A program made the position numbers and the translations under genes. A model generated the notes under the pieces. The model was given only the letters and a program-made list of their open reading frames with translations. It was not told the origin of the DNA and did no database searches. A stretch of 25,022 bases of DNA from a virus, in the IMG/VR virus record IMGVR_UViG_3300032289_001881, positions 1-25,022 of that record. The stretch is one strand, 5' to 3'. Position 1 is the stretch's first letter; the number at the start of each line of letters is the position of its first letter. This document shows, piece by piece, positions 1-4,216 of this stretch.

Positions 1-50
1 GAGTAACAAAAAGGTGCTTCACTATAGAGTTCGAATCCCGCTTCTCCGCA
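1..50 (+). tRNA. Possible 3' fragment of a tRNA (Ser-like), truncated or degenerate
   Basis: The stretch TTCGAATC (30-37) followed by a C/T-rich end CTTCTCCGCA resembles a T-loop plus the acceptor 3' strand of a serine-type tRNA. GGTG-CTT-CACT (13-23) could be the long variable arm of a class II tRNA. The T-stem 5' side (TAGAG) pairs poorly with CCCGC, and the 5' half of the gene is missing at the contig edge. It may be a decayed tRNA, an attachment-site remnant or a chance resemblance. Confidence 0.3.
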
Positions 51-2024: not shown

Positions 2025-2119
2025 ATCCAAGTAGTCGAAACAAATGCTCAGTTTTTTTTGTTATGATCGCGTACAAATGGTGCATCCCCAGTACCAGAGT
2101 ACAATGTGTGTTTATTTCG

Positions 2120-2155
2120 AACGGTGTCGCAGTAATGTGGCACCGTTTACTTTTT
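2120..2155 (+). terminator. Strong rho-independent terminator
   Basis: AACGGTGTCGC (2120-2130) pairs with GTGGCACCGTT (2137-2147), an 11-bp stem including G-U pairs, around a 6-nt loop. TTTAC and TTTTT follow. It closes the unit that ends with the gene at 1377-2024 and opens the non-coding gap before nrdB. The stretch 2025-2119 has no recognisable gene. Confidence 0.8.
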
Positions 2156-2180: not shown

Positions 2181-2209
2181 TGTCGCAAGTATTGGATATA
2201 TTTGCGACA
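2181..2209 (+). promoter_or_regulatory. 29-bp palindromic promoter/operator, unit 1
   Basis: The arms TGTCGCAA and TTGCGACA (perfect 8-bp inverted repeat) are separated by 13 bp. The right arm overlaps TATATTTG (2197-2204), a match to the Bacteroides -7 consensus TAnnTTTG. No TTTG -33 box lies at the usual 19-21 bp upstream. That suggests an activator-dependent or repressed promoter for the nrdB unit; this is inference. Confidence 0.55.
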
Positions 2210-2235
2210 AAATCATATCAACCTATCTTATCATT

Positions 2236-2264
2236 TGTCACAAATGTTGTCTAAATTTGTGACA
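2236..2264 (+). promoter_or_regulatory. 29-bp palindromic promoter/operator, unit 2
   Basis: The arms TGTCACAAA and TTTGTGACA (perfect 9-bp inverted repeat) are separated by 11 bp. The right arm overlaps TAAATTTG (2252-2259), again a TAnnTTTG box, at the same offset (position 17) as in unit 1. The units have the same length, match at 22 of 29 positions by my count, and start 55 bp apart. A -33 box at normal spacing is missing here too. Confidence 0.55.
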
Positions 2265-3317: not shown

Positions 3318-3344
3318 AAAGGGGGATGGCAACGTCCCCCTTTT
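3318..3344 (+). terminator. Rho-independent terminator after nrdB
   Basis: AAAGGGGGA (3318-3326) pairs with TCCCCCTTT (3335-3343) around an 8-nt loop, and TTTTG follows the C-run. The hairpin contains the upstream ATG at 3326, which argues that the next gene starts later. Confidence 0.85.
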
Positions 3345-3364
3345 GTATTTTATCGCAAAAAGAA

Positions 3365-4216
3365 ATGATTCAGAAGCGTAACCTAAAGTCAATGGAAATC
3401 AAACCTTCCGGTAGATCTACGGACTTCCTGTCACCGAGTTTTATCTTTGGCTGCGGATTCAACTGTAGTTATTGTACTTGCAAAAGGCATATACCGGAAG
3501 GGGTGATTTACCATGAGAACGTGTCTGAGATGCTTACTGCTATCAACAACCACTGTTGGTTTGCAGATGTACAGAAGCCGAATCAGACCGACCCACACTA
3601 CGTTACTTACGACATTGGATGCAACACCGACATTGGTTTACACGCATCCAAGATACCGCTACAGACCATCTTTGACTTCTTTGTGAGTCACCCGATTGCA
3701 AAAGCTTCTTTTGCTACCAAATACGTGAACGACAAACTGCTTCAGTACAACCCTAAGGGTAAAGTACGAATACGGTTTAGTCTGATGCCGATTAAGTATT
3801 CAAATATACTTGAACCCAATACTTCATCCATCGAATCCAGGATAGACGCTATCGACAGATTCGTGGATGCCGGGTATGAGGTACACATCAACTTCTCACC
3901 GGTTATTGTTGAGGACGGTTGGTTGAAGGAGTACGAGGAACTCTTCCGTATGGTTGACAGAATCACCCATAAGAGCGGCGTAAAGGCCGAGGTGATATTC
4001 TTGACCCATAACGAGAAGAAACACGCTTACAACGTATCCCAAGGCCTTCCAGGGGAGGATTTACTCTGGAAACCTGATATTCAGGAGGACAAGGTATCTC
4101 AACACGGAGGGAAGAACATCCGGTACAACCGTTTTGTCAAGTCCAAGTTTGTGCAGCAGTTCACGGGGCTGCATGGAGGTATCATTCCGTGGAACACGAT
4201 TAGGTATATTTTCTAA
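3365..4216 (+). CDS. Radical SAM protein, spore photoproduct lyase-like
   Basis: The cluster motif CX3CX2C is present as C30, C34 and C37 (FGCGFNCSYC), which binds the 4Fe-4S cluster used to cleave S-adenosylmethionine. The surrounding KPSGRSTDFLSPSFIFG and the later YDIGCNTDIGL and ATKYVNDKLL segments look like the SplB/DNA-photolyase-like branch seen in phages. In that family the enzyme repairs UV-induced thymine dimers; whether this protein does so is inference. The start chosen is the ATG at 3365 (283 aa), because the ATG at 3326 lies inside the nrdB terminator. The ATG at 3392 is a second possibility. It stands between nrdB and replication genes. Confidence 0.8.
   Translation: MIQKRNLKSMEIKPSGRSTDFLSPSFIFGCGFNCSYCTCKRHIPEGVIYHENVSEMLTAINNHCWFADVQKPNQTDPHYVTYDIGCNTDIGLHASKIPLQTIFDFFVSHPIAKASFATKYVNDKLLQYNPKGKVRIRFSLMPIKYSNILEPNTSSIESRIDAIDRFVDAGYEVHINFSPVIVEDGWLKEYEELFRMVDRITHKSGVKAEVIFLTHNEKKHAYNVSQGLPGEDLLWKPDIQEDKVSQHGGKNIRYNRFVKSKFVQQFTGLHGGIIPWNTIRYIF

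Follow-up and report, generated by a model that had tools for sequence, protein, structure and literature searches.

The locus examined here raises the question of which protein would read a pair of similar palindromes ahead of a phage ribonucleotide reductase gene, and what such elements might do for the phage. The gene, nrdB, lies in the window, meaning the whole 25,022-nucleotide (25-kb) stretch of IMG/VR record IMGVR_UViG_3300032289_001881 that was analysed. An earlier, sequence-only reading had interpreted the pair as a duplicated operator-promoter, perhaps a phage-specific switch controlling the nucleotide-synthesis unit.

Twin palindromes upstream of nrdB

As that reading described, two units of equal length with arms of the form TGTC-R-CAA and TTG-Y-GACA are present, exact at 2181-2209 and 2236-2264. 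Both are 29-bp palindromes (TGTCRCAA-N13-TTGYGACA) oriented toward nrdB, with starts 55 bp apart, located between a hairpin and the nrdB ATG (2331), which lies 66 nt downstream of unit 2. Its further details also hold: positions 5 and 25 exchange jointly between the units (G/C vs A/T), preserving the symmetry; TAnnTTTG occurs at an identical offset in both; and the -33 box is absent, as host abiE promoters, described below, likewise show no conserved element at that spacing. The features are as follows, with scores from the host-operator matrix introduced below and with L135 denoting the closest relative.

2119..2148, + strand: terminator-like hairpin of the upstream gene, 13 pairs then a T run (1 found vs 0.2 expected); visible in L135 too
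2181..2209, + strand: predicted operator unit 1, CGC class, TGTCGCAAGTATTGGATATATTTGCGACA, arms TGTCGCAA...TTGCGACA; exact sequence, matrix score 34.6; kept in L135
2197..2204, + strand: Bacteroidota -7 box TATATTTG within unit 1, facing nrdB; TAnnTTTG as in host and phage sites
2236..2264, + strand: predicted operator unit 2, CAC class, TGTCACAAATGTTGTCTAAATTTGTGACA, arms TGTCACAA...TTGTGACA; exact sequence, matrix score 38.9; missing in L135
2252..2259, + strand: Bacteroidota -7 box TAAATTTG within unit 2, facing nrdB; TAnnTTTG as in host and phage sites
2331..3299, + strand: nrdB, aerobic ribonucleotide reductase small subunit, downstream of the twin operators (Pfam PF00268, E 1e-116)

L135, a 79-kb record whose NrdB is 95% identical, conserves unit 1 and lacks unit 2, which makes the twin state a recent one. 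Among the nrdB relatives compared, L135 is the only one with the site, and nrdB loci at 62-69% identity carry no such palindrome; a nrd regulator site, or a general feature of phage nrdB genes, is thereby ruled out. The search among relatives that the earlier reading proposed thus found the element in the nearest relative and, as shown below, ahead of many other phage genes, but not at more distant nrdB loci. NrdR boxes of ribonucleotide reductase operons are tandem 16-bp AT-rich palindromes before nrd genes, and resemble the window arrangement in being tandem and so placed; compared by sequence only, the NrdR box is unlike the window units.

Some neighbouring features are recorded in their own right. 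In L135 (1696-3660), nrdB contains an in-frame intein-like insert after residue 103 (654 aa vs 322 aa in the window, where the gene has no insert). Immediately 3' of the window nrdB, at 3326-4216, lies a spore photoproduct lyase-related gene (radical SAM, PF20903), here in a phage. Window positions 1-50 resemble the 3' part of a tRNA gene truncated by the record end, and ARAGORN reports none.

The palindrome in Bacteroidota genomes

A search of 85,000 bacterial and archaeal genomes with the extended palindrome returned 76 stretches, nearly all from Bacteroidota. In 61 of these 76 loci, an open reading frame of about 200 aa belonging to a single family lies directly downstream, its start usually 18-20 nt past the palindrome. 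This family is DUF6088 (PF19570, E 3e-64; PADLOC AbiEi, E 2e-67), and the gene that follows it usually encodes an AbiEii-type nucleotidyltransferase, the toxin. The AlphaFold model of a host DUF6088 protein (pLDDT 93) finds its best PDB match in Streptococcus agalactiae AbiEi (6y8q), followed by Rv2827c (1zel). By sequence family, by the fold of its winged helix-turn-helix (wHTH) and C-terminal domains and by its AbiEii-type partner, the host DUF6088 protein is an AbiEi-type antitoxin and autorepressor.

In S. agalactiae, the AbiEi wHTH binds inverted repeats over the abiE promoter and represses the antitoxin-toxin operon (PMC3985639). Since it precedes an AbiEi-family gene, and since autorepression by way of inverted repeats at the promoter is established for AbiEi, the palindrome is, on comparative grounds, the self-operator of Bacteroidota abiE operons. 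The S. agalactiae operator resembles the window units in its TGTYGC-type inverted-repeat ends overlapping the promoter; it has the form TGTTGCTTTTA-N27-TAAAAGCAACA, whereas the window units are TGTCRCAA-N13-TTGYGACA and stand before nrdB with no abiE genes (PMC3985639). Rv2827c of Mycobacterium tuberculosis, an AbiEi-like antitoxin, has tandem sets of inverted repeats at its own promoter, which differ from the window units in sequence and spacing and form a chromosomal rather than a phage-borne operator (PMC7319586). AbiEi-type operators are therefore already known in Streptococcus and Mycobacterium; of the Bacteroidota class and its occurrence on phages no account was found in the openly searchable literature.

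An unbiased sample gave a consistent picture. An even draw of 296 Bacteroidota genomes, made irrespective of the motif, contained 17 strong DUF6088 genes, and most of them (all but about one, L427) have an upstream 29-bp palindrome of the same architecture, some imperfect. The symmetric arm variants are TGTCRCAA, YGTCCCAA and TGTCAGAA, giving the classes CGC, CAC, CCC and CAG; exact CGC/CAC palindromes numbered 10 in these genomes vs 1 for the reversed control. In 43 of 50 host sites, TAnnTTTG lies in the gene-proximal arm.

Operator class follows the protein. AbiEi residues 33 and 36, predicted to lie within the recognition helix (residues 32-44 of the AlphaFold model), predict the class in 63/63 distinct proteins with CGC or CAC operators (mutual information 1.00 bit): residue 33 is K in the CGC class vs mostly D/E in the CAC class, and residue 36 is S/N/A/Q/H vs R. 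In the CCC class the combination is E33/K36. When the recognition helix is left out of the tree, the class switches about six times and the residues switch with it, only two of these switches falling on well-supported branches, too few to give a sign test any power. Because operator position 5 co-varies with two recognition-helix residues in 63/63 genes, AbiEi almost certainly reads the palindrome, to judge from these sequences. Symmetry at positions 5/25 is complete among host sites (58/58) and frequent among distinct phage sites (85/97), compared with 22/40 chance palindromes. With so simple a code, linking residues 33 and 36 to operator position 5, specificity, cross-talk between AbiE systems and the matching of phages to hosts would become predictable.

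A few host sites are not ahead of DUF6088: HipBA or McrBC is close to some, others follow the toxin gene of another AbiE type, and some further sites fall at contig or locus ends. At L210:4344 and L220:3596, both within defence islands, orphan operators that have no DUF6088 in their vicinity stand between McrBC-like genes on the upstream side and HipBA-like or XRE genes on the downstream side. The CGC/CAC palindromes L234:3952, 4125 and 5174, L243:4440, L258:1525 and L275:1977 are near-identical between species. Those of L234, L243 and L258 lie 79 nt past a toxin gene that belongs to another AbiE-type pair (292 aa + 266 aa), and in L275 the site occurs in a different setting; perhaps this is a mobile element with orphan operators. 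Two hits labelled as a cyanobacterial MAG (L251) and an archaeal MAG (L276) look like mis-binned Bacteroidota DNA.

Operator sites on phages

The host sites provide a measure for the window. A scoring matrix built from 57 host operators (mean 44.2, range 31.3-49.2) gives unit 1 a score of 34.6 and unit 2 a score of 38.9, both toward nrdB. No other place in the window exceeds -5.0, none in the reversed window exceeds -14.4, and the reversed-pattern scan yielded 60 chance palindromes that reach 28.0 at most; these controls exclude chance as the origin of the two units. There is no third site with three or fewer mismatches anywhere in the 25-kb window. Both units combine the 29-bp palindrome and its host-type inner pattern with an overlapping -7 box facing the start codon (TATATTTG and TAAATTTG), and their identity as AbiEi operators is strongly supported by sequence comparison. 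Host operators precede abiEi-abiEii and serve autoregulation, whereas nrdB occupies that position here; as neither DUF6088 nor an AbiEi-type wHTH was found in the window or in L135, the site is best described as a putative orphan operator rather than an abiE promoter. What stands of the earlier interpretation is an operator doubled over a Bacteroidota-type promoter before nrdB and presumably read symmetrically by a DNA-binding protein; its phage-specific character does not stand, since host AbiE (DUF6088/AbiEi) toxin-antitoxin operons use the same element as their self-operator.

The basic pattern occurs at least 120 times in IMG/VR vs 60 for the reversed pattern, and as loose viral matches therefore include chance ones, the claims made here rest on matrix-filtered sites. 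With related contexts removed, there remain at least 68 independent sites on phages with scores of 28 or above, higher than any chance palindrome, and 31 of these 68 lie in no open frame of at least 60 aa vs 2 of 60 chance palindromes. CCC-class sites, predicted for phages from the host classes, gave 32 strict matches vs 0 in the reversed control, and five CAG-class sites were also found. The 35 strict viral matches are not independent: 27 come from one phage family, whose site apparently falls within coding sequence, 73 nt upstream of a gene, and which was counted as one site. In this family (L371-L395, L007, L015, L046, L056, L059, L078, L099, L109), the operator stands exactly 73 nt ahead of a 153-aa gene, and its arms alternate between CAC, CGC and hybrid forms.

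The genes behind phage sites are unrelated to one another, encoding primase, RecA, GroEL, a ClpA/B-like ATPase, Hsp20, lysis proteins such as lysozyme, a MazG-like protein, a 2OG-Fe(II) oxygenase, a prohead protease, an HNH nuclease, a starvation-type regulator and NrdB. Control of the nucleotide-synthesis unit, as first proposed, is not supported, given such variety and the distant nrdB loci that do without the element. Where one gene lies close by, TAnnTTTG is found in the arm nearest to it in 42 of 59 phage sites (28 only there, 14 in both arms) and only in the far arm in six. Phage genomes usually carry a single site. Like the window, L080 (56 bp apart) and L002 (888 bp apart) have one CGC and one CAC unit, the L080 twin not being near a gene start, and a few phages have CAC and CCC sites far apart. 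Against annotated phages, Blastn of the window promoter region gave weak matches only, and short consensus queries matched Tenacibaculum phage pT24, with a weaker match to Maribacter phage Panino. By comparison with the host sites, the identity, class and promoter position of the window units can be assigned.

By the same comparison, AbiEi is absent from most operator-bearing phage records. DUF6088 is missing from 114 of 117 such records, many of which, the window included, are fragments, and from the complete genome of pT24 (234,670 bp), which has the operator. When the wHTH alone was searched for, both positive controls gave it, and the window, L135 and a further 33 records with operators, complete pT24 among them, yielded no domain of the AbiEi type. 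DUF6088 is present in three operator-bearing viral records, in one of them (G042) immediately behind the palindrome. Given that dozens of unrelated phages without AbiE bear an AbiE switch, usually before a gene of their own, these phages probably either respond to a bacterial defence regulator or interfere with it.

Possible roles of the phage-borne operators

On the strength of these comparisons, we consider it likely that the window palindromes are orphan operator-promoters, one CGC and one CAC, for host AbiEi, which would bind them, repress nrdB and in turn be titrated by them. In a host with AbiE, AbiEi would bind the phage units like its own promoter; because the operator overlaps the -7 box, repression of the phage gene is the expected outcome, and nrdB would be held low early in infection. 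As phage DNA copies rise, AbiEi would be soaked up and nrdB released once the copies outnumber it, and the same titration would derepress host abiE. In hosts without AbiE, the nrdB promoter would be active by default. One operator of each class, as in the window, L080 and L002, or the CAC and CCC pairs elsewhere, would fit the coverage of several AbiEi classes. Binding, repression, titration and any benefit to the phage are what we infer, and a promoter that a defence regulator can close offers no obvious advantage; moreover, some phage sites are not promoter-like, lying in open frames or, like the L080 twin, far from a gene start. A broader proposition is put forward more tentatively: Bacteroidota phages, lytic ones included, may carry orphan AbiE operators as DNA sensors or decoys that track AbiEi classes, the possession of both classes covering different hosts.

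Alternatively, the sites would be pure decoys that only titrate AbiEi and disturb host AbiE, with any regulation of the neighbouring gene incidental. An operator that stays constant while the downstream gene varies, two classes at distant places in some phages, the apparently coding site of one family and a twin away from any start codon would all suit such a role; it is nevertheless improbable, as a -7 box lying close to the next gene and pointing toward it is retained at most sites, and the usual single site per genome is few for an effective sponge before replication. Slightly less probable again is a phage-encoded regulator of the same specificity. The three viral records with DUF6088, with the G042 gene directly after the palindrome, speak for it, and since many records are incomplete, a phage-borne AbiEi could lie elsewhere in the window phage, but the scarcity of DUF6088 and of the wHTH, extending to complete pT24, argues against it, and a single site per genome would be unusual for a phage regulon.

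There is little likelihood that the abiE promoter was captured merely as a strong Bacteroidota promoter, with AbiEi binding irrelevant. The operator does include the -7 box, and phage sites retain the CTATATTTG centre; even so, the distal arm, dispensable for a promoter, stays symmetric at positions 5/25, and phage sites are not copies of one sequence. The chance that the palindromes act as an RNA hairpin in the nrdB leader is negligible: although unit 2 is able to fold (z -2.2), the host palindrome includes the -7 box and stops 18-20 nt short of the ATG, placing it mostly upstream of any transcript, and the arms co-vary with a DNA-reading helix. An RNA element was also rejected on its own terms, folding being weak and no Rfam match lying above threshold.

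Should host AbiEi indeed read these sites, many Bacteroidota phages would couple a promoter of their own to the repressor that governs a toxin-antitoxin defence system of the host, or titrate that repressor, by a counter-defence or timing device consisting of an operator alone, to which gene-based searches are blind. Phage escape from ToxIN by a pseudo-antitoxin offers a parallel, in that the phage has its own copy of an element that controls a toxin-antitoxin system; there it is an RNA mimic of the antitoxin, whereas the window has a DNA operator. A host counterpart of the twin arrangement occurs in Flavobacterium sp. ZT3R18 (L207 and L227, on one contig), which has two adjacent AbiE loci that differ in operator class; each locus has a near operator of its own class and a distal operator of the other. 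This looks like cross-regulation between AbiE systems, and such two-class promoters provide a precedent from which the window twin could have been acquired.
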